Shown: one piece after another, positions 298 through 31,497 of the stretch
Position numbering within the stretch: position 1 is the first letter of the stretch
How the letters are laid out: each line of letters begins with the position of its first letter
DNA from: Halobellus inordinatus
Lineage (GTDB): Archaea > Halobacteriota > Halobacteria > Halobacteriales > Haloferacaceae
DNA: 64,000 bases
Direction of reading: 5' to 3'
NCBI RefSeq assembly: GCF_024464655.1
Contig: NZ_JANHAV010000010.1
Coordinates: 1-64,000, forward strand
The notes under the pieces: generated by a model
Databases searched by the model: none
The model's input: the letters and a program-made list of their open reading frames with translations, nothing else
Told to the model about the DNA's origin: nothing
Made by a program: the position numbers and the translations under genes

Positions 298-3200
298 TCA
301 CCGAACCGCTAACACGTATGCGACACCAGTCAGGAGACTCCACACGAGGCCGGCAGCGAGCCCGACACTGACAAGCGTCCCAGGGCCCAGCAGGCCGCTG
401 ACGAGCCAGACGAGAACGCCGGTGGCGGCGAGACCCTGGACCTGCAGTCCACCGACCGGCGGCGACCGATTCCGGAACGTATACGCCATCCCGACGCCGC
501 CGAGGAGCAGCGCAGACAGGTACAGCAGCGATCCGAGCAGTCCCCAGAGCGACCCGAGACTGTCGAGGAGCGTCACGTCGGACGGCGTCGGGGACGGCGT
601 CCCGCCGACTGCTGTCGACGTTGCTGTCGGTGTCGTCTCCGACTGCGGTTCGACCGTGACGGCTGTCGCGTTGGCGCTGTCGATGCCGAGAGCGTCTTCG
701 ACAGCCAGTTCGATGCGGAGCCGCTCTGTGGGCATCACGAGACTCCAATTCGGTGCCGACTGGGCAGCTCGTTCAGTCCCGTTGACGACGAAGTGATAGC
801 GGTCCACAGCGAGGCGGTCGGTGCCGCTCGTCGATCCCGCACCAGAGACCCGGACCCGCTGGTCGGGGATGGCACCTGCGGGGGCGTCGATCCGGGGCGT
901 CGGCCGCGCATATCGTGTCCCAGTGGGCTCGGTTCGGAACGGCACGAAGTCGGCCCAGCCCCGTTCCGTCACGACGGCGTTTCCCTCGCCTTCGGGGAGA
1001 ATCGAGGAGTGATACGGCCCGCGGTCGGAACCCCAGTAGTTAGATTCCGCGTGCACGGTTTGGACCGGTTCGGTGACGATGCGTGCCGTCGTGTTCGCGG
1101 CGATTAGCGGCGCGATATCGACGGTCAGCCCGCGCCGCTGCCCGTACACGTCGTTTCCGACGACCCGAAACGTTTCGTTCGCCGTCCCCGTCTTCGGGAC
1201 CGCGATGCCGGTGGGGAGCGAGTCACCGACCCGCCGAATTGTCACCGCGCTCGCTTCCGCAGCGCGCGCTTCGCTCTCGCCGTCGCTCCGCAGGACGACG
1301 ACAGTGTCGTCCCAGAGCCGAGCGATCGTGAGTTCCTGATTCAACGTCGGGTTCGCGACGAGGTCCGAGAGCGATATCTCCGCGTTCGCCTGGTTCACGA
1401 CGACGCCGCTGGCGCCTTCGGCGACGTACACTCCCGTCCCCGGGGTGACTCCTCGGAGAGGGACGGCGTCGGTGAACGCATTCGTGTTGAAGACGACATC
1501 GTTGTCTCGGATGGTCGTCCGGACCAGTCCCCGGACCACGATGCCGTACGTGTTGGCCCCCACGACGTTGTCCGTGAGCGTGAGAGCGCCCCGGTGGGTG
1601 ATCGGACTCGATACGAGGAGACCGGCGCCGCCGTTGTTCGCGAGCCGATTTCCGTCGACGTCGACGTCGTGTACGAGAAGGTTACTTTGGACCGCGAGCC
1701 CGTGGCCGTCACCGTCGACGAGTGTGTTGTTGCGGACCGTGAGGTCGCGGACGGCGGCCTGGGTTCGAAGCGTGACACCGTCGCCGCCGCTCGATCTGAC
1801 GTCGTTGCGGGCGATTCGCAGATCTGCGGCGAGCGTGCCATCGAGCGCCAGTCCGTCGTCGCCGTTGGCCGCGATCCGATTGTCTAAGATGTTCCCCCGT
1901 CGGACGATCCAATTCGAGAGGTGGATCCCGTCACGACCGTTCGCGCGGACGGTGTTGTTCGCGAGGTGAAGCCGCACTTCGAGCGTTCGCGTCGTGACGT
2001 CGATGCCGTGGCGGTCGTTGTCCGTGAGGTGGTTGCGTCGAAGCGTGACGTTCGCCTCCCTGCGGATTCGCGTGCCCGACTGCCGGATTTTGATGCCGGT
2101 TTCGCTGCCGCTGATGTGGTTCTCGTAGCCCGTAACCTTCGCTCGCGATAACGTTTCGACGTAGATCCCGTCGGCGGACGCCGCAATGTCGTTGTACCAG
2201 AAGGCGCTCTCGCTGTCTTTCGCCCGGACGGCGATCCCGTCGCCGTCTACCTGTGCGACGTCGTTGTCGACGGCCCGCAGTCTCGTGACGCGATCGGCGG
2301 CGACGAACAGACCCGTGCCCGCGATATCGCGGAACTGCGACTGTCGGACGGTGAGGCGACGAACGTGCGTCGTCGCCGATCCCGAAGACCGGACGGGCGA
2401 CGTCACCCCGCCAACGACGTATGCGGCCTGCACGCCGTCCGAGAGCTGAGAGACGCCATCGTGAAAGAGCCGGACGTCGACGGGATAGATACCACGCGTC
2501 TGCGGATTCATGGCGCCGCCGTATTCGACCGTGAGACGTCCATCACTCGGGACTCGGAACGTGCGGTTGAGCGCGATCCGAACGTCGCCGCCGGTCGTCG
2601 AGACGTTCTGCACGTAGTCGATGTACGATCGATCGATCGTCCCGTTGCGGTTACGGTCGAGGCCGATTCGGTCGAGCGTCTCTCGCTCGACTCCCGCAAC
2701 GGTGTCGGCGGACGAATACTCGAGTCGGATGGTATCGAACGCGACGCCGACTCCCGGGTGGAGCGACAGCGTGTGATCCGACTGTTCCGTCCGCTCGTCC
2801 GGGACGGCAGTGAGCGAGGCGCGGTCGGTCGCGCCGAACGACGGACTGGCACTGATCGCGTGGCCCTCTACGTCCGCGAAGGTCGAACGGTGGATCGTGA
2901 CCTCCGGTGTTGCCCCTATCTCACCGACCGAAACGGCCGCCGTCTCGAAGTCCCGCATCGTCGAATCCACGATTTTGATCGATCCCGCACTGCTCGCGAC
3001 GGTGACGCCCTGCACTCCGCCAGTGAGCGTCACGTTGCGGACCACGAATCGGGAGTCGTCGCTGCCGTTGTACCGGATGCTCCCCCACCGGCGGTCGGGA
3101 GACGCCCCTTCACTTCTGGAGATGGTCACGGGACGCGCTTCCGTTCCGGTCGCGTCGAGCGACCCGCTCACGGTGAGTGTAATCTGTTCAGCGAGCTGTA

Positions 3201-3441
3201 CCCTCGTCCCCGGTTCCAGCGTCAACGTCGCGCCGGGTTCGACGCGAATATCCTGGATGATTCGGTAGGGGCCCCCCTCGGGAGTCCACGTCGTGTCCGT
3301 CGTGATCGCCGATTCGACGAACGTCACGTCTTCCTCGGGTGTTATAGCACCTACGGGTCCGACTATAAGAGAAGCGACCAGTGCCGCAGCGAGGAGAGCA
3401 GTCAGCGTCTTGTGGAGTCCGGAAGCCTTCGAGGAGTTCAT
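298..3441 (-). CDS. secreted right-handed beta-helix surface protein with C-terminal membrane segments
   Basis: This 1047-residue protein begins with a Sec-type signal peptide (about residues 8-32, rich in Ala/Leu, ending in GPVGA). The body, about residues 50-840, is a long run of NosD/parallel beta-helix coils with many N-x-V/I and G-I-x-V steps, as seen in carbohydrate-binding or polysaccharide-degrading solenoids. Around residues 860-940 there is an Ig/PKD-like stretch, then a Thr/Pro/Ser-rich linker, then about three hydrophobic membrane segments in the last 100 residues. It is therefore probably tethered to the cell surface with the solenoid outside. It is divergently transcribed from the acyl-CoA synthetase gene. 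The substrate is unknown; a structural or adhesive role is equally possible. Confidence 0.8.
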   Translation of the reverse strand: MNSSKASGLHKTLTALLAAALVASLIVGPVGAITPEEDVTFVESAITTDTTWTPEGGPYRIIQDIRVEPGATLTLEPGTRVQLAEQITLTVSGSLDATGTEARPVTISRSEGASPDRRWGSIRYNGSDDSRFVVRNVTLTGGVQGVTVASSAGSIKIVDSTMRDFETAAVSVGEIGATPEVTIHRSTFADVEGHAISASPSFGATDRASLTAVPDERTEQSDHTLSLHPGVGVAFDTIRLEYSSADTVAGVERETLDRIGLDRNRNGTIDRSYIDYVQNVSTTGGDVRIALNRTFRVPSDGRLTVEYGGAMNPQTRGIYPVDVRLFHDGVSQLSDGVQAAYVVGGVTSPVRSSGSATTHVRRLTVRQSQFRDIAGTGLFVAADRVTRLRAVDNDVAQVDGDGIAVRAKDSESAFWYNDIAASADGIYVETLSRAKVTGYENHISGSETGIKIRQSGTRIRREANVTLRRNHLTDNDRHGIDVTTRTLEVRLHLANNTVRANGRDGIHLSNWIVRRGNILDNRIAANGDDGLALDGTLAADLRIARNDVRSSGGDGVTLRTQAAVRDLTVRNNTLVDGDGHGLAVQSNLLVHDVDVDGNRLANNGGAGLLVSSPITHRGALTLTDNVVGANTYGIVVRGLVRTTIRDNDVVFNTNAFTDAVPLRGVTPGTGVYVAEGASGVVVNQANAEISLSDLVANPTLNQELTIARLWDDTVVVLRSDGESEARAAEASAVTIRRVGDSLPTGIAVPKTGTANETFRVVGNDVYGQRRGLTVDIAPLIAANTTARIVTEPVQTVHAESNYWGSDRGPYHSSILPEGEGNAVVTERGWADFVPFRTEPTGTRYARPTPRIDAPAGAIPDQRVRVSGAGSTSGTDRLAVDRYHFVVNGTERAAQSAPNWSLVMPTERLRIELAVEDALGIDSANATAVTVEPQSETTPTATSTAVGGTPSPTPSDVTLLDSLGSLWGLLGSLLYLSALLLGGVGMAYTFRNRSPPVGGLQVQGLAATGVLVWLVSGLLGPGTLVSVGLAAGLVWSLLTGVAYVLAVR

Positions 3442-7739: not shown

Positions 7740-8192
7740 TTACGTCGTTTCGTTCGTCGGCTCTTCAGCAGTTAAGCTCGTATTACTGCAGGGGACGCTT
7801 CGGTTCAGAGACACGCGCACGCCGCTCCCGGAGGCGTCGATCGCGACGGCGTCGCCGCAGGAGACGTTCGCGAACGTGTGTGAGCTGGTTTCGCCCGGGG
7901 CGAGCGAGCCGTCGCTGGCGAGGTCAACCGCGGTGCCATCGACGGTGGTCTCGACTTCCGTGAGATCAGTCCCCGCAGCGAACTGATTCGAGACTGTCAC
8001 TTCGAGATCGGCGGTGCCGTTGCTCGCGTTCGTGGTCGTGCGCTGGAGGCCGAGGTAGGCGTCCTCGTCGCCGACGACCTGGACCTGAACACCCCGGTCT
8101 GCGTGTACCGAGCTGTACGCCGCGGTGTTGGAAACGAGCGCGAGCGAGGCGAGCAGCGCGGCCACGAGCACTACCTGGCGACGGTCGATCAT
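7740..8192 (-). CDS. secreted DUF1102/TasA-like small protein
   Basis: This 150-residue protein has an N-terminal signal peptide (RRQVVLVAALLASLALVSNTAAY). It then carries the stretch SSVHADRGVQVQVVGDEDAYLGL, which resembles the start of DUF1102 proteins, a family often found with SipW-like signal peptidases and related in layout to TasA/CalY secreted fibre proteins. Two cysteines (SCGD and PCSN) could form a disulfide. The end is a Thr/Asn/Glu tail without a membrane anchor. Its start overlaps the stop of the upstream DUF7344 gene by 4 nt (ATGA), so the two are translationally coupled. Family assignment is from pattern memory. Confidence 0.65.
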   Translation of the reverse strand: MIDRRQVVLVAALLASLALVSNTAAYSSVHADRGVQVQVVGDEDAYLGLQRTTTNASNGTADLEVTVSNQFAAGTDLTEVETTVDGTAVDLASDGSLAPGETSSHTFANVSCGDAVAIDASGSGVRVSLNRSVPCSNTSLTAEEPTNETT

Positions 8193-8782
8193 TCCTCGTC
8201 CACCTCCGGCGGCTTCTCGCGCGCGCCCAGTCGCATCCGGTAGTAGTTGTCGTAGAAGTGGCCGACCGACGAGATAGTCAGCGCGGTCAGGACGAACACG
8301 CTCCAGGTGAACGGTTCGACTAGCGTGAACGGGAACAGTCCGGCCCAGTAGCCGAGCAGACAGAGCCCACAGAAAGCCGAGAGGCCCAGATAGTAGATCC
8401 CCCAGGGGATGTCGCCGCCGGTGAGCGAGTCGACGTAGAAATTCGCGTCGGCGGCCTCGTCTGTGAGCGTGACCGTCCCGCGTCGCGCATCGTACTCGAT
8501 GAACCCGTAGTCGTCCATCTTCGGCAGGTGGAACTGCCGCAGCGCGTTGCGGACGCGCTTTCGTTCCTGATGTGTGAGCGCCTCGATCTCCGTGTCGTTC
8601 TCCCAGCTCGCGACCCAGTCGGTGAGTTCGGAAACTGAGACGTGTTCTCCCTCCCGTTGTTTGAGATAGTGAATCGTGAATCGACGGCGTTGATTACTGA
8701 GCATTTCGAGCAGTTCGTCGTTCGAGAATTCCGGTCCTCCAACCGACGACAACTGCCCGTTGCTTCGTTGTGCTTTACTCAT
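8189..8782 (-). CDS. DUF7344 winged-helix membrane protein
   Basis: The 197-residue protein has an N-terminal winged-helix domain of the haloarchaeal DUF7344 type (residues 20-105): ELLEMLSNQRRRFTIHYL, then ALTHQERKRVRNALRQFHLPKMDDYGFIEYD. Two hydrophobic membrane helices follow at about 127-147 and 152-172, then a short basic/acidic tail. It is probably a membrane-tethered DNA-binding regulator. It is coupled by a 4-nt overlap to the secreted DUF1102-like gene and likely controls that operon. Three further DUF7344-type genes occur in this window (starts at 49058, 50710 and 54965). Confidence 0.8.
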   Translation of the reverse strand: MSKAQRSNGQLSSVGGPEFSNDELLEMLSNQRRRFTIHYLKQREGEHVSVSELTDWVASWENDTEIEALTHQERKRVRNALRQFHLPKMDDYGFIEYDARRGTVTLTDEAADANFYVDSLTGGDIPWGIYYLGLSAFCGLCLLGYWAGLFPFTLVEPFTWSVFVLTALTISSVGHFYDNYYRMRLGAREKPPEVDEE

Positions 8783-10273: not shown

Positions 10274-12694
10274 TTACGAGTCGCTGCTCTGCGTCGAGTC
10301 GCTACCGCTGGACTCACTGGAATCGTCGCCGTCCGAGCTTTCGGAGCTGCTGTCACCGGACTCACTGGAATCGTCGCCGTCCGAGCTTTCGGAGCTGCTG
10401 TCACCGGACTCACTGGAATCGTCGCCGTCCGAGCTTTCGGAGCTGCTGTCGCTGGACGTGTTGGTATCGCTGTCGTCGTCGTCCCCGGAGCTACTGTCGC
10501 TGGACGTACTGGCATCGTCGCCATCCGAGTCTTCGGAGTTGCTGTCACTGGAACTGTCGGCACCGTCGCCGTCAGATCCGGTGTTCTGCTGCTGGCTTCC
10601 GGAGGTGCTTTGCGATTGACTCTGCTCGTTGTCGTCGCCGACCTGCGTCTGACCCTGGTTCTGGACGGTGGATTGCTCTTGCTGCTGGGCGTCACCGCCG
10701 TCCGAAGAGTCACCGCTACTCTGACTCTGGTCTTGGTCTGCGCTTTGACTCTGGCTCTGCTCGTTGTTGTCGCCGACCTGGACCTGAACCTGATTCTGGA
10801 TGACGACCTGGCTCTGGGACTGCCCGCCGTCGGTCATCACCTCACCGGTCTGTTGGGTCTGCGTCTGACTGGACACTTGTGTCTGGTCCTGGAACGACTG
10901 CCCGTTCACGGTCGTCTCGACCGTCACCTGCACACCGGTGGTGATCTGACCGTCCGAGGAGGTCGTCGTGCCCTGGGATTGACCCTGTCCTTGACCGGAG
11001 CCTTCAGACACCGACTGCTCTTGGTTCTGCGACTGATCGACGGACTGCTGCTGTTCGCCGTCGCCGTCGCTCTGATCCTGTGTCTGATCCTGGTCTGCGC
11101 TCTGGCTCTGGTCTTGGTCGTTGTCGTCACCCGACTGCGCCTGTGCCTGGTCCTGATCGACCGTCTGCTGTTGACCCTGATCAGCGCCGTCACCGGACTG
11201 CGATTGAGCCTGTGACTGATCGCTGTTCTGCGTCTGGTCCTGCTCGTTGTCTTCGCCAGTCTGCTCTTGATCCTGCGACTGATCGGTGTCTTGAGACTGG
11301 CCCTGCTGGCCGTCCGCACTCGACTGGCTCTGACTCTGGCTCTGCTCTGCGTTCTGATCCTGCGTCTCCTCGTTGTCTTCACCGGACTGCGTCTGACCCT
11401 GGGACTGACCGACGTCTTGACTCTGGTCCTGATCAGCGCCGTCACCAGACTGCGTCTGGTCTTGCGTCTGCTCGCTCGTTGCGTTCTGCGCTTGAGCGTT
11501 GTCGACTCCCGACTGCGTCTGACTCTGCGACTGTGCGTCGGACTGCCGCTGTTCCTGATCGCTGTCCGCGGCGGACTGCGTCTGGTCCTGCGACTGCCCG
11601 TCCGCTTGCGACTGCGCCTGGGTGTTGTCGGTCCCAGTTTGGGCCTGCTGCTGGTCCTGGTCCGAGTTCTGACCCTGGTTCTGCTGGCTATCCGTACCGG
11701 ACTGGGCCTGTTCTGCAGCCTGCTCTGAGGTCTGGTTCTGTGCCTGGGCGTTCTCCGCACCGCCTTGGACCTGTCCCTGCCGATCGGAACTGCTCTGTTC
11801 TTCGTTCTGGCGGTTGTCTTCGCCGGCCTGATCCTGCTGCTGAGAGGCCGTCGATTCCTGGCCCTGCGCTTGGGTGTTGTTCTCGCCAGCCTGGTTCTGC
11901 GCCTGTCTCTGGCCAGCGTCTTGGCTCTGGTCTTGGTCGTTGTCCTGACCGGTCTGCTCTTGGGTCTGTCCGCGGGCGATGGCCTGATCCTGACCCTGAT
12001 CACTGTCCGTGGCGGACTGCGATTGGTCCTGTGATTGGTCGGCGGATTGACTACTCGATTGGGTGTTGTCCTCGCTCACCGGGTCGTCACCGGCGTCGAC
12101 GTTCCCATCGGCACCGTCCGCGTCGTCGACATCGTTGTCGGCGGAGTGGTGGTCGCTGGACGTGTCGTCGCCGTCGCTTTCACCGTCGTCGTCGCCGCTC
12201 TGGTTGGCGTCACTCTCGTCGTTAGCGCCGTCTTCACCATCGTTGCTGTCGCTATCGCTGTCGTCGCCGTCCGAGCTATCGTCGTTGTCGTCTGAGCTGT
12301 CGTCTGAGCTATCGTCGCCGTCCGAACTCTCCTCTTCGTCTTCGTCGTCGCCCGAGACGATCAGCGAACTGTTCTGCGTCTGCGTGCTTCCGTTCTCGCT
12401 TGCCGCGTCGGAAGCACCGTCGGACGAGTCACTGGAATCCTCGGTCGTCGACGGGCCCGACTCGCCATTTGAATTTGGCCCGGTATCACCGTCGTTCTCA
12501 CCGACTGCTGCGGAGGAGCCTCCGCCGGCGTCGGCGCCCGATCCAACTATTTCTATGCTCGACTGTTGAGTGCTGCCATCCAGGAGGGCACTCCCTGAGC
12601 CCTGCAGCGAGACCGCCATTCCCGACGTTCCGAGAACGACAGCAATCGCTATGGCAACAATTACCAGCGAGCTACGGTTGAGCTGTGTATTCAT
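10274..12694 (-). CDS. secreted curlin-like repeat protein B with acidic Ser/Asp stalks
   Basis: The product has about 806 residues from the ATG at 12694 (an upstream in-frame ATG at 12727 would put 11 residues before the signal, so I reject it). It has a hydrophobic export signal (residues 8-27), then a Ser/Asp/Gly/Asn-rich acidic linker of about 170 residues. About 17 consecutive 21-residue units follow with the pattern Q-x-G-x-D-N-x-Q-x-Q-x-Q. Near residue 600 a less biased beta-rich segment (ITTGVQVTVETTVNGQSF) is followed by two more units (VQVGDNNEQSQSQ and TQVGDDNEQSQSQ). The end is an SD-type stalk with three 16-residue repeats. The spacing Q-x4-N-x5-Q equals the curlin repeat of bacterial CsgA/CsgB. 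No enzymatic motif or membrane anchor is seen. It is the second gene of a two-gene operon, 46 bp after gene A. A secreted beta-solenoid or amyloid subunit is inferred. Confidence 0.75.
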   Translation of the reverse strand: MNTQLNRSSLVIVAIAIAVVLGTSGMAVSLQGSGSALLDGSTQQSSIEIVGSGADAGGGSSAAVGENDGDTGPNSNGESGPSTTEDSSDSSDGASDAASENGSTQTQNSSLIVSGDDEDEEESSDGDDSSDDSSDDNDDSSDGDDSDSDSNDGEDGANDESDANQSGDDDGESDGDDTSSDHHSADNDVDDADGADGNVDAGDDPVSEDNTQSSSQSADQSQDQSQSATDSDQGQDQAIARGQTQEQTGQDNDQDQSQDAGQRQAQNQAGENNTQAQGQESTASQQQDQAGEDNRQNEEQSSSDRQGQVQGGAENAQAQNQTSEQAAEQAQSGTDSQQNQGQNSDQDQQQAQTGTDNTQAQSQADGQSQDQTQSAADSDQEQRQSDAQSQSQTQSGVDNAQAQNATSEQTQDQTQSGDGADQDQSQDVGQSQGQTQSGEDNEETQDQNAEQSQSQSQSSADGQQGQSQDTDQSQDQEQTGEDNEQDQTQNSDQSQAQSQSGDGADQGQQQTVDQDQAQAQSGDDNDQDQSQSADQDQTQDQSDGDGEQQQSVDQSQNQEQSVSEGSGQGQGQSQGTTTSSDGQITTGVQVTVETTVNGQSFQDQTQVSSQTQTQQTGEVMTDGGQSQSQVVIQNQVQVQVGDNNEQSQSQSADQDQSQSSGDSSDGGDAQQQEQSTVQNQGQTQVGDDNEQSQSQSTSGSQQQNTGSDGDGADSSSDSNSEDSDGDDASTSSDSSSGDDDDSDTNTSSDSSSESSDGDDSSESGDSSSESSDGDDSSESGDSSSESSDGDDSSESSGSDSTQSSDS
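10316..10460 (-). repeat. three tandem 48-bp repeats (Ser/Asp stalk)
   Basis: Three nearly identical 48-bp units encode the 16-residue unit DGDDSSESGDSSSESS at the C-terminus of curlin-like protein B. Near identity at DNA level suggests recent expansion by slippage or recombination, while the 21-residue units upstream are diverged. Confidence 0.85.
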
Positions 12695-12740
12695 TTGGAA
12701 GAAAAAACTGCCGCCGTCAGGCGGCAAGCGCTTCGTTCAG

Positions 12741-14927
12741 TTACTGGTCCTGCGATTGGGTCTGACTGATCGTTTGGCTCTGGCTCTGGTCGTTGTCTTC
12801 ACCTGATTGTGACTGCGACTGATCCTGGTCGCTTTCTTGCGACTGCGTCTGGTCGTTGTCCTCGCCGGACTGCGACTGGGACTGACCCTGACCGGAGGCC
12901 TGAGTCTGGGACTGGGTGTTGTCCTCACCAGACTGCGTCGCGCTCTGGTCCTGATCGCTGTCCTGCGACTGGTCCTGAGTGTTGTCTTCGCCAGTCTGCG
13001 ACTGCGATTCGGACTGCGTCGAACTCTGGTCCTGGGACTGACTGCTGTCGTCTGCAGACTGCGTCGCGTCCTGGGACTGGCTGCTGTCCTGGCTGCTGTC
13101 CTGGTCGCTGTCCTCAGCGTCTTGGGTCTGTGCCTGTTCCTGGCCGGAGGTCTGCGTGCCGGACTGGTCGCTGTCGTCGCCAGTCTGCGTCTGGCTGCTG
13201 TCCTGGCTGCTCTCTTGGTCTTGGTCCTGATCGTTGTCCTCGCCAGCCTGGTCTTCACCCTGACCCTGCGTCGAGGTCTGGTCCTGCGACTGCGTGCTTT
13301 CCTCGCCGGACTGCTGTGCGTTCGTACTCTGGTCGCTGTCCTGCGTCTGCTCCTGGGAGTTATCCTCGCCAGCCTGGTTCTGGTTCTCGGTCTGGTCGCT
13401 GGATTGGTCCTGGGTCTGGACGTTGTCCTCGCCGGACTGCTCTATGTCTCCACTCTGCTCGTTAGACTGGACCTGGTCCTGCGAGTTGTCCTCGCCGAGT
13501 TGAGTCTGTCCCTGGTCTTGCGCGGCGTCCTGCGTGCGAGTCTGTTCGTTGTCCTCGCCGTCCTGCATCTGTTGACCACGCTGGTCGCTGTCCTGCATCT
13601 GCGCCTGCTCGTTCATCTCACCGTCCTGCGACTGCGACTGATCTTGGCTGGAAGACCGGTCGCGCGACTGGACGTTGTCTTCGCCGCTCTGACGCTGGTT
13701 ACCACGGTACTGACGAGCTTCCTGGGACTGCTCTTGGTCGTTTTCGTCACCGACCTGCGACTGCGACTGACCCTGGATGCTGGTCACGTAGTAATCTTGG
13801 TCGTTGTCCTCGCCGTACTGACGAACGTACAACCGCTGACGCGTCCACTGGTCTTGATCCTGCTCGCTGTCGTTCGCGAGTTGGGTCTGGGACTGACCTT
13901 GGGTCACCTCTTCGCCAAGGTCCTGATCGTTGTCCTCGCCGTACTGGCGCACGTCCGAGTGCTGACGCGCCCACTGTTCTTGGTACTGCTCGCTATCTTC
14001 GGCGTCCTGGAACTGATCCTGACCTTGGCTTATCGCTTCTTCGACGGTCTGGCTGTTGTCCTGGCCCTGCTGGTGGACGTCCGCCTGCTGGCTGGCCCAC
14101 TGGTAGTAGTCCTGGACCACGTTAGTGCCGTACTGGTACTGTTCTTGATCCTGGTCGATCTCCTGGAGGACGTCCTGGGAGCTCTCGTCTGCGTTCTGAT
14201 TGACGGTATCGTCCTGATCCGCTTCCTGGTCGCCCGTCTGATCGCTGTCGTCAGCCCACTGCTCTTGGTACTGATCCTGATCGAGGCTCTGGGTGACGTC
14301 CTGCGTGCTCTCATCTCCGTCCTGGTTGGCGGTCTGCGTCTGCTCGCCAGACTGGGAGATGTTCTGGAAGCCGTTCTCGATGGCCTGTTGCACCTGCACT
14401 TGGATCTGCGTCAGGTACTGGTAGACGGACTGTCGGCTGTCGGCTCCGTCTTGGGTCTGCATCTGGGACTGTCCCGCGTCCTGGTCGCCCTCTTGTTCGC
14501 TTTCTTCAGCGACCTGGCTGTGGTACTGGTCCTGTGCAACTTCTTGACCCTGGTTCTGTTCGTTGTCTTCACCAGCCTGAGTGGCAGACTCAGACTGTCC
14601 CGAATCTTGGTTCTGGGACTGGGCGTTCGCTTGGCCCTCCTGAATCTGCTCTTGGAGCTGTTCTAAGAACTGCTCTTGATCGGCTGTGTTGTCTTCACCA
14701 CATTGATCGCCACCGGCGACCATCACCGCGACTTGGCTCTGGCTTTGGGAATTATTATCACCGGTCTGCGATTGTGATTGATCGCGCTCGAACGCTTGGT
14801 CTTGTGTGCGGTCATTGTTCTCGTTCACAGCACAGGCGTTCGACGACTGTGCTGCGCCGATCCCGCTCAATGTGAGCGAGAGAACGACGACAATGACCAT
14901 CAACTGTGTTAACCTATGTCGTTTCAT
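12741..14927 (-). CDS. secreted curlin-like repeat protein A
   Basis: The 728-residue protein starts with a clear Sec signal peptide (basic MKRHR, hydrophobic core to about residue 24, GIGAAQSS cleavage region). Essentially the whole mature protein (residues 30-728) can be laid out in about 33 units of 21 residues, with only two units off by one residue. The unit is G/A-E-D-N/S-x-Q-x-Q-x-Q-x4-Q-x-Q-x-Q-x-Q-x, giving Q-x4-N-x5-Q across the unit boundary. Early units are richer in aromatic and aliphatic residues (for example VRQYGEDNDQDYYVTSI), and late ones are almost pure Q/S/D/T. This matches bacterial curlin repeat spacing and predicts a beta-solenoid with Gln/Asn ladders. The acidic positions suit high salt. 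It is first in the operon with gene B; a winged-helix regulator lies divergently upstream. No csgG/csgE/csgF-like secretion gene is present. Confidence 0.78.
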   Translation of the reverse strand: MKRHRLTQLMVIVVVLSLTLSGIGAAQSSNACAVNENNDRTQDQAFERDQSQSQTGDNNSQSQSQVAVMVAGGDQCGEDNTADQEQFLEQLQEQIQEGQANAQSQNQDSGQSESATQAGEDNEQNQGQEVAQDQYHSQVAEESEQEGDQDAGQSQMQTQDGADSRQSVYQYLTQIQVQVQQAIENGFQNISQSGEQTQTANQDGDESTQDVTQSLDQDQYQEQWADDSDQTGDQEADQDDTVNQNADESSQDVLQEIDQDQEQYQYGTNVVQDYYQWASQQADVHQQGQDNSQTVEEAISQGQDQFQDAEDSEQYQEQWARQHSDVRQYGEDNDQDLGEEVTQGQSQTQLANDSEQDQDQWTRQRLYVRQYGEDNDQDYYVTSIQGQSQSQVGDENDQEQSQEARQYRGNQRQSGEDNVQSRDRSSSQDQSQSQDGEMNEQAQMQDSDQRGQQMQDGEDNEQTRTQDAAQDQGQTQLGEDNSQDQVQSNEQSGDIEQSGEDNVQTQDQSSDQTENQNQAGEDNSQEQTQDSDQSTNAQQSGEESTQSQDQTSTQGQGEDQAGEDNDQDQDQESSQDSSQTQTGDDSDQSGTQTSGQEQAQTQDAEDSDQDSSQDSSQSQDATQSADDSSQSQDQSSTQSESQSQTGEDNTQDQSQDSDQDQSATQSGEDNTQSQTQASGQGQSQSQSGEDNDQTQSQESDQDQSQSQSGEDNDQSQSQTISQTQSQDQ

Positions 14928-18379: not shown

Positions 18380-19843
18380 CTACGAGGAGTCGCGACTCGC
18401 GACCGAACACGTGCTCAGGGACGTTCCCTTGGGGGCGTGACAGGTCGCGTCCATCGTGATGATCTCGGAGCCCATCGTCTGGATCGTACTGTTCTCGAAG
18501 AGGATCTCCTCGGTGTTCAAGAGGAGAATGCCGTGCGGGTACGGCGACCAGTCGACGTAGAGCCCCACGAACTTCGATTGGGGGCGGCCCGTCAGTTGGA
18601 TAGCCGGTTCGGCGTAGGAAGAACCGATCGCGGTGACGTTTCGAAGCGTCGCGCGCCACGGTTTTTCGGGGACTGCGCCGAGTCGGGGGTCCCGCGGATC
18701 GTCGATACGGATCGCCTGAACGCCGTCGGCCTGAATGTCGAACTCGCAATCGCGAATCTCGAACGCGCCGGCAGAGCCGTCGACCCACACGGCCGCCTTC
18801 GTCTGCTGTGGCGCGCTCCGGCAGGTGAACGAGCACTGTTCGATTCGACCGCCAGCCTGGCCGAGTTCACCGGTCTCCCAGACGATCGAGTGGGGATTGA
18901 TGAAGTCGCTGCTGTCGGGGTGAGCGTTCTCGGTATCGATGACGAACTGACAGTTGCGAACGAGTGCCCCGCTACCGCCGATACGAAGCGATGTCTGGTT
19001 GTTGTTGCGGAATGTGCTGTCGAGTATCTTCACTGGTCCGGGGGTTCGGGAGGCGTAGATGGCGTTCGTGCCAGTGTTTTCGATGTGGGAGTTCCGGATG
19101 ACGAGCTCGCCCTTATGTCGGTTCCCCAGCCAGATGCAGCTGTCGTTGGAGTTGCCGTCGAGGTGGCCGTGCGAGACGATGTCCGTCGGGCCCGTCCGGA
19201 CCAGTCCGTCCACGACGGCTTTCCCATCCGGTTTGAGAGCCATCGGTACGAGGCTGATCTTCGATCCGTCGCCGTGTTGAGGGTTGTACCCAACGTATTC
19301 GACGTCTTGCACGCGGATCTTGTCGTCCGCACGGAGCACGAGGCCCGTGCTCCCCTTCCGTTCGGCACTGTAGTCGAGGGTGATGTTCTCGACCAGTTGG
19401 CCGAGTCCCCCGTCGGTCCGGACGAGATATCGCCCCTCGCCGGGCGTCGTGACGAATCGTACGTCCCCGGGCTCGTCCCCGAGGCCGCGGATGCCCCAGT
19501 TCGTCACCGAGTCGACGCGGTGTTCCTCGGCGAAGTAGTAGGTCCCCGGTGGGAATTCGACGAGCGTGTCACCCCGATCGAGCGTCGACGCGAGGGCGTC
19601 GTCGATCGGTTCGTTACCTTCGGGGTCCATCCCGAGGTCCGCGACCGCATCGACGACGTTCCCGAACGAGATTCCATAGCGTGACGGCTCCGCCCCGTCT
19701 GGGGTCGTGGTAGTCCCGCCAGGAGTCTCTGATCCGTCGTCCGCTGGCTTCCTGTCCGATTGGCCAGCCCCGAAGTTACAGCCGGCGAGCGATCCGATGC
19801 CCGCCAGGGCCGCGCTCCGTTTGATGAGGTTACGACGGTTCAC
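18380..19843 (-). CDS. Tat-exported beta-helix lipoprotein
   Basis: I place the start at the GTG at 19843, preceded by a GGAGG ribosome site about 8 nt upstream, giving 487 residues. It begins with the Tat signal NRRNLIKRSAALAGIGSLAG followed by Cys (lipobox). A Gly/Thr-rich linker follows. From about residue 65 to the end lies a right-handed parallel beta-helix with pectate-lyase-like coils (DTLVEFPPGTYYF, WGIRGLG, DIVSHGHLDGNSND, HIENTGTNAIYASR). It is a clear paralogue of the N-terminal domain of the 782-residue protein at 29149-31497. It probably binds, cleaves or epimerises the extracellular polysaccharide, but no catalytic residues can be assigned with confidence. It lies 62 bp downstream of the membrane-protein gene. 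Confidence 0.82.
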   Translation of the reverse strand: MNRRNLIKRSAALAGIGSLAGCNFGAGQSDRKPADDGSETPGGTTTTPDGAEPSRYGISFGNVVDAVADLGMDPEGNEPIDDALASTLDRGDTLVEFPPGTYYFAEEHRVDSVTNWGIRGLGDEPGDVRFVTTPGEGRYLVRTDGGLGQLVENITLDYSAERKGSTGLVLRADDKIRVQDVEYVGYNPQHGDGSKISLVPMALKPDGKAVVDGLVRTGPTDIVSHGHLDGNSNDSCIWLGNRHKGELVIRNSHIENTGTNAIYASRTPGPVKILDSTFRNNNQTSLRIGGSGALVRNCQFVIDTENAHPDSSDFINPHSIVWETGELGQAGGRIEQCSFTCRSAPQQTKAAVWVDGSAGAFEIRDCEFDIQADGVQAIRIDDPRDPRLGAVPEKPWRATLRNVTAIGSSYAEPAIQLTGRPQSKFVGLYVDWSPYPHGILLLNTEEILFENSTIQTMGSEIITMDATCHAPKGTSLSTCSVASRDSS

Positions 19844-19905
19844 CGTACTACTTCCTCCATATTGTGATCTTAACGTTATGAGTGTCCTATCGGTCTGTGA
19901 TCGGG

Positions 19906-21702
19906 TCAATCGAGGTAGTACACGGTGACGTCACCGTTCGTCTGGATCCGGTGTGTGGTAGGGGCGGCTCCCACCTGCCGAAACTCCGTGCTGGAGTATC
20001 GGAGCCCGCGGTACACCTCCGTCTCGCTCTGTCGGTCGTACGCGCTGTACGCGAGATACCGGTCACCGTCGTAGTAGCCTCCCAACTGCCCGCCGAACAC
20101 GGTGCCGTTGGGCGAATCACCGAGTGGGACGCCGCCCTCCTCATACTGGAGCGCTTCGACGAACCGGTACGGGCCGACGCGGACGCCAAGAATCGGGACG
20201 TCGTCGTCTTGGTGTTCGATCAGCGTCTGATACCCCTCCATCTCCGTTTCGGTGACCTGGCTGTTCGGGAGGAAGATGTACGGCGACGAGAAGACGACTA
20301 ACAGCGAGAGGACCAGCGCGATGACGGTCGCCGTCCCGAGAACGGGACGAAGGTCGAACGGGACGACAGAGCCGAGGTCGTCGTTCGATAGCAAGAACAG
20401 CGCGAGTGCACCGAGGAGCGTGACGACCGCCATCGCGAACCCGACCTGTCGGAAGAGATACGCGTCGATGTCGCCGAGGAAGTGGACCGCGAGGTACGGC
20501 GAGAAGACGAGGCCGCTGTACGCGAAGTAGACGACGACGCCGTCGCCACGGCGGACTGGTTCGGTGAGGTTTCCCCAGAACCGGGTCAAGACGAGGCCGA
20601 CGGTGAGAAGCGAGTACACCAGCGAAACGCCGAACAGTTTCACGAACAGCTCGAAGAGGCTCGCGCCGACTGCCGAAGACGACTGCCCCCGCTGTTGAAC
20701 GATCTCTGCCGTCTCTCCCGTGCCGGCGATCGCATCTTGGATCCCGGTCACCATACTCTCGAAAACCCGGACAGTGTTCTCGAACTGACTGGCCCAGAAG
20801 GCGAACACGAGAGCGAGCACGAGCAGTTGTCCGTACACCCCACGGAACTCACTGATCGAGTGTTCGGGTTTCCACCGTCGGTAGACGAACCGAACGCCGA
20901 CGATCGTAGCCAAGACCAAGAGCACGTCGAATGCGGCCTGAGGGTGTAACAGGACGAGCGTCGTCGAGACCAGCGGGAGGACGAGCGCCGTCGGAGAGAG
21001 TCGATCGGGCAGGACGCTGTCGGTGTGGTGTCCCGTGATGTGAGCGAAGACCAGGTAGTAGAAGAACGGTGTGAAGAACACCGTCATCGAGAACGGATGG
21101 AAGTGTTCGTGCACACTGACCTGATTGACTGGAAGGAGCAACAGCGCCGAGATGACGCCGAAGAACACGATCCGTCGGTCACGATAGAGAACGTAGAGAC
21201 TCAGCGGGACGAACACGACGAACAGGAGCTTGAACACGAGCGTTACGAGCAGCATCGACTGCCGGATCTCGATCCCTGTCGCCGCACTCAACAGGACCGA
21301 AATCAGGTGCGACGCGGGGTACAACAGGTCGGTCGGGACTAAAAGCCCGTCGGCGATGTCTTTCGCCCACCCGAGATGGATCAGTGAGTCGCCGTGTCCG
21401 AAGAAGTAGTACCCACGGAGCGACGGCAACGCGAAGACGCTCACCATCGTGAGACTCACGAGAAACAGGGCGAATCCGCCGTACCGGTCGCGGTAGGAGA
21501 CGAGCGAGACGGCGACGCCAACGACAGTTGCGACAGCGACACCGGCCCAGAACAGCGGCGTCGTCGCCGCGTAGATCGACACTTCGTACTGGGTGGCGCG
21601 GTCCAAAGAGACACCGACGAGTGCGCCCGTGAGCCCCAGGTAGCCGATCAGTAAGGCGATCTTACGACGTATTGCCGCGTCTGGCCCTCCGCTCGTACCC
21701 AT
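19906..21702 (-). CDS. multi-pass membrane protein, possible GT-C-type glycosyltransferase or polymerase
   Basis: The 598-residue protein has roughly 13-14 membrane helices in the first 500 residues and a C-terminal extracytoplasmic domain of about 110 residues (from YIFLPNSQV). Motifs include FFGHGDSLIHLGWAKDI near residue 103 in an early extracytoplasmic loop (an acidic/His loop like those of GT-C enzymes) and VSVHEHFHPFSM near 207. The start is supported by GGAGG 5 nt upstream of the ATG. Similar proteins occur in haloarchaeal surface-glycan loci, where they may transfer sugars from lipid carriers or polymerise repeat units. I cannot name a specific family. Confidence 0.65.
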   Translation of the reverse strand: MGTSGGPDAAIRRKIALLIGYLGLTGALVGVSLDRATQYEVSIYAATTPLFWAGVAVATVVGVAVSLVSYRDRYGGFALFLVSLTMVSVFALPSLRGYYFFGHGDSLIHLGWAKDIADGLLVPTDLLYPASHLISVLLSAATGIEIRQSMLLVTLVFKLLFVVFVPLSLYVLYRDRRIVFFGVISALLLLPVNQVSVHEHFHPFSMTVFFTPFFYYLVFAHITGHHTDSVLPDRLSPTALVLPLVSTTLVLLHPQAAFDVLLVLATIVGVRFVYRRWKPEHSISEFRGVYGQLLVLALVFAFWASQFENTVRVFESMVTGIQDAIAGTGETAEIVQQRGQSSSAVGASLFELFVKLFGVSLVYSLLTVGLVLTRFWGNLTEPVRRGDGVVVYFAYSGLVFSPYLAVHFLGDIDAYLFRQVGFAMAVVTLLGALALFLLSNDDLGSVVPFDLRPVLGTATVIALVLSLLVVFSSPYIFLPNSQVTETEMEGYQTLIEHQDDDVPILGVRVGPYRFVEALQYEEGGVPLGDSPNGTVFGGQLGGYYDGDRYLAYSAYDRQSETEVYRGLRYSSTEFRQVGAAPTTHRIQTNGDVTVYYLD

Positions 21703-29148: not shown

Positions 29149-31497
29149 ATGGACGACACTAGTGGTGAGAAGGAAGATCCTACTGTGGCATCTACGAGTG
29201 AATTTGCGGAGCAGGAAGAATCGGCCGGCTCAGATGACGAAACGCCGAGTATGGGGTCTGAAACCTCTAGTAAGGGACTCCTTAATCGGCGTAATTGCCT
29301 CAAAGCGGGGGCGGCGATGCTCGCCGCGGGGTCGTCGGCGTTCGTTGGCGGCGCGGCAGCAGCGACGGAACGGTACGGGATCCAATTCAGTACTGTCGTC
29401 GATGCAGTCGACGACCTCGGCCTGGATCCGAACGGCAACGATCCGATCGACTCGACGTTGGAAGACGCGCTGGCGAGCGGCGACACGCTCGTGGAGTTCC
29501 CGGCTGGGACCTACTACTTCGACGGCCAGCTGGACTTCGGCTCGCCGGACAACTGGGGCATCCGTGGTCTGGGAAGCAGTCCCTCGGACGTGCGGTTCGT
29601 GACGACGCCTGGTGAAGGACGGTATCTGACAAAGACCAACGGCGGCTCCGGACAGCTCGTCGAGAACGTCACCTTCGACTACAGCGCTGAAGACGACGGC
29701 GGGCTCGGAATCGTCCTCCGTGGCGAGGACAAGATCCGCGTCCAGGACGTAGAGTTCGTCGGGTTCAACCCCGTTCACGCGGATGGCTCGAAGATCAACG
29801 TCGTGCCGATGGCGCTGGATCCGAACGGCCGCGCGGTCATCGATGGTCTGGTGCGAACGGGCCCGACGGACATCGTCTCGCACGGCCACCTCGACGGCAA
29901 CTCCAACGATAGCTGTATCTGGCTCGGCGACCGTCACGAAGGCGAGCTCGTCATCCGGAACTCCCACATCGAAAACACCGGCACGAACGCCGTATACGCC
30001 TCCCGGACTTCCGGGACGGTCCACTACGAGAACTGTCTGTTCAGGAATAACAATCAGACGTCGATCCGGATCGGCGGCGGCGACGGGAACCAAAACACCA
30101 TTCAGAACTGTACGTTCGTCGTCGACACCGAGAACGCGGACCCGGACAACGGGGGCGAGTTCATCAACCCCCACGGCGTGGTCTGTGAGACGAACGAGAC
30201 GACGCCCGGGCCGATTCGCATCGAGGACTGTGAGTTTATGTACAAGTCCGGCCCCGACCGCGGTCGGCTCCTGTTTGCCGACGGCAACGCCGGACCGATC
30301 GAAATCGTCAACAGCCGGTTCCGCTCGGAGAATAGCGAAGTCGAGCCCATCTTCGCACGCGGCGAACCCCGCTGGTGGAAGGCCGCACCCGACCAGTCGA
30401 TCGACATCCGCAAGAGCCAGTTCTCCGGCAGCGGCGAGGTTACGGTCAACGACCGGCCGGCCACGATGCAAAGCGGCTGTATCTCCAGTCCCGTCTCCGG
30501 CGTCGACGTCGACGAGAGCGTCTCCCGGGACAGCTGTACGATCCCCGACACCGACGCACCGGCGGAGTCGACCGAAGAAGAGGAAACGGAGAGCGACACG
30601 ACCACCACGACGCTGACGAACGAGCTGACCGTCACCGGGACCGGCACGAAGACGAACTACGAGTTCGCCGTCGGCGGCCAACTCGAAGCGACGGACGACG
30701 TCGAAGCGTGGGATGAAGTCTCCGAGTCCTCCGTCAATGGCTGGATCACCTCCGAAGGAGTAGCAGACACCTACCAGTTCTCCGGGCCGCTCCAGCGCAT
30801 CGAGTTCCTCGAAGGAGAGGCAAAAGTGTCTGTCAACGGTCAGCAGATCGATCCTGCGACGCTGAGCACGAGCGGCGAGTTCCCCTCGACCCTACAGATT
30901 CCGGGCAACGGGAGCACGAAGAACTACCGGGTCAGCGTGACCGGCGAAATCGCCGACCACCCCGCCCTCGGGACGTCGCTGAGCGAGTACGACACCGTCT
31001 CCGACGGGACGCTCGAAGGGTGGGCCACAGACGAGATGGACGCCATCCAGTTCTCTGGATCGGTCGAATCGATCGAGCTGCTCGAAGGCGACGGCTCGAT
31101 GTACCTCAACGGGAAGCAGATCGATCCGGCGACCTACGATCCGGCGACCGAGCAGACCGACGGGGAAACGGACGAGCAGACAGACGAGGAAACGGACGAA
31201 CAAACCGACGAGTCGACCGACGACGCCACGAAGCTCCCGAACACGATCACGATCGACGGGGACGGCGCCGGGGTGACCACCTACAGTTTCAGCGTCTCGG
31301 GCGACGTGGTTCGGAGCGACCAGCTGAGTTCGGGAACGGGTTCGACCACGATCGACTCGCTGACCGACTCGACCTCCGATGGAACGGTCAACGGATACAT
31401 CTCCCAGGGCGTCGACGGCTATCGGTACTCCGGGGAGATCACTAGCCTATCGATCAACGGCGACGCGTCGGTCTCCATCTCGGACAACGACGGATAG
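29149..31497 (+). CDS. Tat-exported beta-helix protein with three C-terminal repeat domains
   Basis: The 782-residue protein has an acidic, Ser/Glu-rich N-terminal extension of about 40 residues, then a Tat signal (NRRNCLKAGAAMLAAGSSAFVGGAAAA, residues 48-74). A beta-helix domain (about 80-465) is strongly similar to the lipoprotein at 18380-19843 (shared TLVEFPxGTYYF, WGIRGLG, RTGPTDIVSHGHLDGNSND, IRNSHIENTGTNA). After a Thr/Glu linker come three copies of a roughly 90-residue domain with the pattern NxxTxxGxG-x-x-x-Y-x-F-x-V-x-G ... QFSGxLxxIxxLEGxAxVxVNGxQIDPAT; copies two and three are separated by a Glu/Thr-rich linker. It lacks a lipobox, so it should be released or surface-associated. 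Polysaccharide binding or cleavage is likely. Confidence 0.85.
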   Translation: MDDTSGEKEDPTVASTSEFAEQEESAGSDDETPSMGSETSSKGLLNRRNCLKAGAAMLAAGSSAFVGGAAAATERYGIQFSTVVDAVDDLGLDPNGNDPIDSTLEDALASGDTLVEFPAGTYYFDGQLDFGSPDNWGIRGLGSSPSDVRFVTTPGEGRYLTKTNGGSGQLVENVTFDYSAEDDGGLGIVLRGEDKIRVQDVEFVGFNPVHADGSKINVVPMALDPNGRAVIDGLVRTGPTDIVSHGHLDGNSNDSCIWLGDRHEGELVIRNSHIENTGTNAVYASRTSGTVHYENCLFRNNNQTSIRIGGGDGNQNTIQNCTFVVDTENADPDNGGEFINPHGVVCETNETTPGPIRIEDCEFMYKSGPDRGRLLFADGNAGPIEIVNSRFRSENSEVEPIFARGEPRWWKAAPDQSIDIRKSQFSGSGEVTVNDRPATMQSGCISSPVSGVDVDESVSRDSCTIPDTDAPAESTEEEETESDTTTTTLTNELTVTGTGTKTNYEFAVGGQLEATDDVEAWDEVSESSVNGWITSEGVADTYQFSGPLQRIEFLEGEAKVSVNGQQIDPATLSTSGEFPSTLQIPGNGSTKNYRVSVTGEIADHPALGTSLSEYDTVSDGTLEGWATDEMDAIQFSGSVESIELLEGDGSMYLNGKQIDPATYDPATEQTDGETDEQTDEETDEQTDESTDDATKLPNTITIDGDGAGVTTYSFSVSGDVVRSDQLSSGTGSTTIDSLTDSTSDGTVNGYISQGVDGYRYSGEITSLSINGDASVSISDNDG

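Follow-up and report, generated by a model that had tools for sequence, protein, structure and literature searches.

The repeat of bacterial curlins has been reduced by Sleutel and colleagues to a kernel, N-x-psi-x-psi-x-Q-x-G-x-x-N-x-psi-x-psi-x-Q, which is followed by 4-5 residues, and in the form used as a membership test the first position is N or S (PMC10192328). Archaeal curlins seem to be little described; a 2012 survey mentions one archaeal protein in which curli-like repeats are regularly spaced (PMC3521004). The first-pass annotation of the DNA analyzed here, which knew of no described archaeal curli system, needs correcting on account of that survey and of the Pfam-positive curlin repeats that were found in the haloarchaeal genus g68 (see below). 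Biofilms of Haloferax volcanii are known to stain with Congo red and ThT, and the causative gene was not demonstrated in that study (PMC4180959).

The window, that is, the whole stretch of DNA analyzed in this study, comprises 64,000 nucleotides of Halobellus inordinatus (contig NZ_JANHAV010000010.1). Two neighbouring genes, A and B, lie on its minus strand with 46 bases between them. As judged from their sequences, the two products are best regarded as a curlin-related variant with a core of glutamine. The annotated features are as follows:

12741-14927, minus strand: gene A (ATG start, 728 aa), an exported glutamine-core repeat protein and proposed polymer subunit with homologues in Haloferax, Halogranum and Halomarina
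14850-14927, minus strand: N-terminal export signal of gene A, MKRHRLTQLMVIVVVLSLTLSGIGAA, with a basic start, a hydrophobic core and an A-x-A-like end, read from the sequence
12747-14831, minus strand: repeat region of gene A, residues 33-727, about 32 units of 21 residues, located with a position-specific matrix
13695-14198, minus strand: residues 244-411 of gene A, the eight units used for AlphaFold2 (pLDDT 79.5 and pTM 0.68 on an alignment of in-register repeats)
10274-12694, minus strand: gene B (ATG start, 806 aa), a stalked glutamine-core repeat protein and proposed cell-tethered partner
12605-12694, minus strand: N-terminal hydrophobic segment of gene B, a signal peptide or uncleaved signal anchor, read from the sequence
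12095-12517, minus strand: Ser/Asp-rich stalk of gene B, approximately residues 60-200, conserved in type in Haloferax
11012-12082, minus strand: main repeat block of gene B, residues 205-561, 17 contiguous units, located with the position-specific matrix
10583-10912, minus strand: second repeat block of gene B, residues 595-704, degenerate and regular units, located with the position-specific matrix
10277-10582, minus strand: Ser/Asp-rich C-terminal tail of gene B, whose 3' part holds a tandem array of 48-base DNA units
15749-42425: surface-polysaccharide genes (GT2, UDP-GlcNAc 2-epimerase, beta-helix proteins, DUF354, sulfatase, polysaccharide deacetylase, GT4 and flippase)

Both proteins had been annotated as exported and as lacking an enzymatic motif, and both statements agree with our observations, as the N-termini read as export signals and no enzyme domain was found in A or B. 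A hydrophobic segment like that of gene B is found in homologues, where it is preceded by a short cytosolic tail in Halogranum and Halomarina. Searches of Pfam, NCBIfam and PHROGs with A and B gave no match. Glutamine makes up 26% of A and 21% of B. The tandem array at the 3' end of gene B (window 10308-10552) consists of five 48-base copies with 82% matches that code for the Ser/Asp tail, and its length is likely to vary between strains.

The A/B pair adjoins the cluster for surface-polysaccharide synthesis. Three right-handed beta-helix proteins, one of them NosD-like, were observed in or beside this cluster (window 298-3441, 18380-19909 and 29149-31497). Overlapping minus-strand genes at window 7740-8782 encode a DUF7344 protein, which resembles a winged helix and has two membrane segments, and a DUF7261-like protein that is weakly similar to the TafC/TafE fimbrial proteins.

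Repeat units were counted from the matches to a position-specific matrix trained on A and B of the window. A total of 32 units were found in A, close to the roughly 33 claimed in the first-pass annotation, whereas the 21 found in B (17 of them contiguous) exceed the 17-19 claimed. The consensus of the unit is Q1-x-G3-E4-D5-N6-x-Q8-x-Q10-x-Q12-x-S/A14-x-Q16-x-Q18-x-Q20-x. Inward-facing columns are 57-99% Q/N and the outward strand positions are mainly D/E/S/T. Compared with shuffles, the autocorrelation of residues at lag 21 is strong in both proteins (z = 18.5 for A and 12.6 for B), and in A it is outscored by lag 42 (z = 23.4); in practice the long proteins thus repeat a 42-residue pair in which two unit types alternate. 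QxG[ED]DNxQxQ occurs nine times in A and three times in B against 0.003 per shuffled protein, and [NSQ]x5-QxGxxN-x5-Q occurs 13 and seven times respectively against about 0.1 expected. The Q-x4-N-x5-Q register that had been reported is real. The full motif is Q-x5-Q-x4-N-x5-Q and not the curli-type S-x5-Q-x4-N-x5-Q, a form that is absent from A and occurs once in B. The power of the Q/N pattern is at its maximum at period 2.1, which corresponds to beta alternation, and it is not significant at 3.5-3.6, so that a coiled coil, a structural alternative raised earlier, or a helix is unlikely.

The register was fixed on the window proteins, and two independent orthologue pairs from Haloferax, one for each gene, served as the test. 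For gene A, dN/dS was 0.05 in the core columns, 0.24 in the turns and 0.43 in the outward columns. For gene B, no core amino-acid change was found in 168 codons (pS 0.29), and outward dN/dS was 0.20. The core columns of the repeat are under strong purifying selection, and the difference between core and outward columns rules out low-complexity drift. Neighbouring units share a DNA identity of only 0.52-0.55 and their glutamine codons agree no more often than expected by chance, which indicates that the pattern is kept by selection and not by fresh duplication; the units are old. The same values exclude recent DNA duplication or slippage as the source of the pattern, and the near-exact array is confined to the 3' tail of gene B. 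A phage or plasmid gene was also rejected, given the absence of a PHROGs match and the failure to find gene A on plasmids. Over one stretch, the window shares 84% identity with a plasmid of Halobellus limi.

The repeat is rare and patchily distributed. With a unit-pair profile it was found in five of 381 sampled Halobacteria genomes (that of the window, two from genus g6 and one each from g14 and g65), and a second profile for shorter, divergent units recovered the identical five. When about 85,000 species with named records were scanned for the pattern, Haloferax profundi, Halogranum amylolyticum and Halomarina halobia were the only ones with repeat proteins. Most of the 36 pattern stretches in the genome collection are single motifs, taken as chance hits, and the repeats among them occur in haloarchaea only; within the Haloarculaceae, matches were limited to three Halomarina genomes. 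The repeat was not found in the other genomes searched from the window's own genus, and the A/B pair is absent from a relative that retains several of the flanking genes. One same-genus relative has near the equivalent site a protein with 30% Gln and QPQQ-type repeats that lacks the QxGxxN register (L149:11883-13046) and appears, from its sequence, to be unrelated to A/B.

A conserved gene pair, which the first-pass annotation had proposed to look for in other haloarchaea, does recur. In Haloferax, Halogranum and Halomarina a long secreted protein adjoins a stalked B-type partner, which brings the genera with the pair to four, and the 21-residue register and its Q positions are kept in these homologues. 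The order of the genes differs, being A then B in Haloferax, B then A in the Halogranum-like G379, and stalked B-type, A-type and a third protein in Halomarina; beyond the pair, no neighbours are common between genera. The family is real, rare and under selection. The middle segment of the third protein type (FGFGGFQLG...) is not repetitive, and its gene follows the A-type gene in three Halomarina genomes (L050:4616-5641, L153:3819-4961 and L152:6646-7662). Halogranum and Halomarina also contain curli-sized versions of 134-221 aa with 4-9 units, several of which are lysine-rich whereas the long versions are acidic. Basic composition is unusual among exported haloarchaeal proteins. Basic members of 145-190 aa with 11-14% K/R (L051:7474-7920, L051:8440-8877 and L053:6378-6950) might pair with the acidic long ones. 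In another member, from Halomarina sp. (L151:5316-5804, K/R 26% overall), the N-terminal half of the mature protein is a Lys/His-rich tract (KKDHKKDYKKD...) that is followed by 3-4 repeats.

The reading that we prefer, at somewhat better than even odds, is that A and B are secreted matrix proteins of cross-beta structure, with glutamine in the core and acidic residues at the surface, A being the polymer and B its tethered partner, and that their repeats have an ancestor in common with curlin repeats. Both proteins would be exported through their N-terminal signals to the cell surface or the biofilm matrix. Each 21-residue unit would form extended beta structure, in which N6, Q8, Q10, Q12, Q16, Q18, Q20 and Q1 point inward and build hydrogen-bonded glutamine ladders in a core common to the units, the D/E/S/T residues that alternate with them point toward the brine and x-G-E-D serves as the turn. 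Stacking of the units would give a long cross-beta rod, and end-to-end joining of such rods would probably produce fibres, which may be amyloid. Gene A, with a cleavable-looking signal and little besides repeats, may be the secreted polymer, whereas gene B, in which a hydrophobic N-terminus and a Ser/Asp stalk precede the repeats and a Ser/Asp tail follows them, is more likely to tether the fibre to the cell or to start it there. Common ancestry of the repeats with those of bacterial and haloarchaeal curlins is most likely, in which case the hydrophobic core would have changed to glutamine and one arc would have been shortened.

Structure prediction did not yield the stacked beta-solenoid that had been expected. 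AlphaFold2 modelled the whole of gene A with five homologues at low confidence (35, up to 58 in the middle of the protein), and a curlin-type left-handed beta-solenoid of two-strand rungs was not predicted for A, a result that concerns prediction only. For the eight units of gene A, an alignment of 45 in-register rows led to a model of eight strands, each 14-18 residues long, one per unit and broken at the GED turn, at the confidence listed above. Such a model would be an up-and-down antiparallel sheet and not a solenoid, where each unit supplies one strand of about 18 residues and a single GED turn; one face of the sheet would be Gln and the other acidic, and the Gln faces would pair with each other. 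Several observations are consistent with this arrangement. The best, non-significant Foldseek matches of the eight-unit model are antiparallel barrels and meanders (no match at E <= 0.001, and 8c50 is absent among the 50 matches listed). In-out parity is continuous from position 6 to 22, which leaves one obvious turn per unit. The turns of such a sheet would alternate between two edges and thereby create a 42-residue period, and period 42 does exceed 21 in the long A-type proteins; in those of Halomarina and Halogranum, the two unit types differ most at turn columns 4-5. However, the alignment used was assembled from in-register repeats, which may mislead AlphaFold2, and the five eight-unit models ranged from 47 to 80; the antiparallel topology itself is deduced from secondary structure and Foldseek matches, strand-pairing covariation did not separate parallel from antiparallel pairing, and the short relatives and B have no clear preference for 42. 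We regard the sheet as possible but on balance doubtful. Solenoid and sheet alike would bury identical Gln columns.

The cross-beta proteins of our preferred reading could also have arisen independently of curlin, as glutamine-core matrix fibres in which QxGxxN-x5-Q was selected because any tight beta-arch or hairpin favours it. The kernel of A/B is Q-x-Q-x-Q-x-Q-x-G-x-D-N-x-Q-x-Q-x-Q followed by three residues, and in it Q, G, N and Q are spaced exactly as in the curlin kernel. The psi positions, A/V/I/L in curlin, and the first N are occupied by Gln, seven of the eight core positions being glutamine, and the second arc has three residues against 4-5; the Gln core and the short arc both fit an independent origin. 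In a profile comparison the 18-column kernel aligns with R15.5 and with the g68 curlin at shift 0. The kernel match is significant under column permutation (p <= 0.0002 for the long proteins, <= 5e-5 for A and about 0.001 for B of the window), and p rises to 0.002-0.06 when strand and turn columns are permuted only within their own class; alternation and the Gly turn thus account for most of the match, while the residual favours curlin.

Direct searches gave little. The curlin model proposed in the first-pass annotation, Curlin_rpt (PF07012), does not recognize A (E <= 10), full-length B (E <= 1) or the short relatives, another point in favour of convergence. Gene A compares weakly with R15.5 (25 bits, p 0.005) and with the g68 curlin (p 0.08 from column permutations), and in the PDB profile search the best entry for A2 was 8c50 (E 0.62, not significant) and A1 had no entry. 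Since neither a match to the model nor the predicted fold was obtained, A and B are not assigned to PF07012. CsgG (PF03783) was absent from the seven haloarchaeal genomes tested and was detected in four of 14 controls; it would not be expected where there is no outer membrane.

An indirect chain does, however, reach the bona fide curlin family. Genus g68 encodes a secreted curlin of 207-245 aa with 19-residue repeats (L005-L008) that matches PF07012 at E 1e-36 to 2e-45, the R15.5 structure 8c50 at 2e-16, an Aeromonas curlin at 3e-10 and E. coli CsgB at 7e-7. It is single-copy, with the repeat NxAxVxQxNxAxVxQxGxx and one loop per repeat (L005:1300-2037, L006:994-1617 and L007:1357-2037), and a curlin of this type was not found in the genome of the window. 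The Halogranum protein L120, with the unit QKGYKNDADQEQKNDQYQESE, aligns to the g68 curlin from residue 1, signal peptide included, and its mature part scores 81 bits against a column-permuted maximum of 37 (0/200 as good). A second Halogranum protein, Hgr190, scores 44 bits against a permuted maximum of 25 (0/200 as good). Gene A in turn scores 45 bits against Hgr190 (0/150 column permutations as good) and 49.7 bits against L120 (p 0.013). These intermediates link gene A to the g68 curlin far above both null models, which makes curlin ancestry likely and an independent origin unlikely; of the earlier suggestion of convergent low complexity, drift has fallen to codon selection, and convergence on a beta-arch is the part that may still hold. 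Shared ancestry of the A/B repeats with bacterial and haloarchaeal curlin repeats is likely on this evidence but not proven. The more specific scenario in which a curlin branch rebuilt its amyloid core almost entirely of glutamine, changed on the loss of an arc from a two-strand solenoid to an up-and-down sheet, Gln on one face and acidic residues on the other, and polymerises outside the archaeal cell without a CsgG-type machine is decidedly unlikely. It is very unlikely that A and B are instead disordered, highly hydrated Gln/Ser-rich acidic proteins that form a water- and ion-binding, mucin-like coat, with the repeat an unfolded spacer, since the strict alternation and the near-zero dN/dS at fixed core columns beside variable outward ones are unexpected of a spacer, even though full-length A is predicted at low confidence, the repeat proteins are 22% acidic and 11-15% hydrophobic, and B has long Ser/Asp tracts.

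As putative matrix proteins of probable curlin ancestry, A and B compare most closely with the curli subunits CsgA/CsgB (PF07012), including the centrosymmetric R15.5 of Pontibacter korlensis (PDB 8c50). Common to both are tandem repeats (about 22 residues in curli and 21 in A/B), the Q-x-G-x-x-N-x5-Q register and alternating inward and outward residues; like CsgA and CsgB, A and B are two related, apparently secreted proteins encoded side by side, and their predicted acidic surface resembles that of R15.5. They differ from curli in the Gln at the psi positions and at the N/S of the first motif, in the shorter second arc, in having 21-32 units in 728-806 aa with a 42-residue super-period, and in lacking CsgG, a Pfam match and a predicted solenoid. 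The g68 curlin shares with A/B secretion, the curlin register, unbroken alternation and one x-G-x-x turn per repeat, whereas its A/V core, 19-residue unit, single gene and Pfam match set it apart. The putative biofilm amyloid of Haloferax volcanii likewise belongs to a haloarchaeal matrix and is known by dye staining (PMC4180959), whereas the sampled carriers of A and B are other species, Haloferax profundi among them. The amyloid-like sheath protein of the methanogen Methanospirillum (PMC10593813) is similar in being an archaeal extracellular amyloid-like beta protein. A and B would make candidate amyloid matrix fibres in archaea. Archaeal biofilms stain amyloid-like, and a defined pair in culturable haloarchaea, linked to curli by sequence, makes the question of the genes behind this staining testable. 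If the core is truly all glutamine, these proteins would be a natural, selected counterpart, working in brine, of the polyglutamine cross-beta structures of disease.
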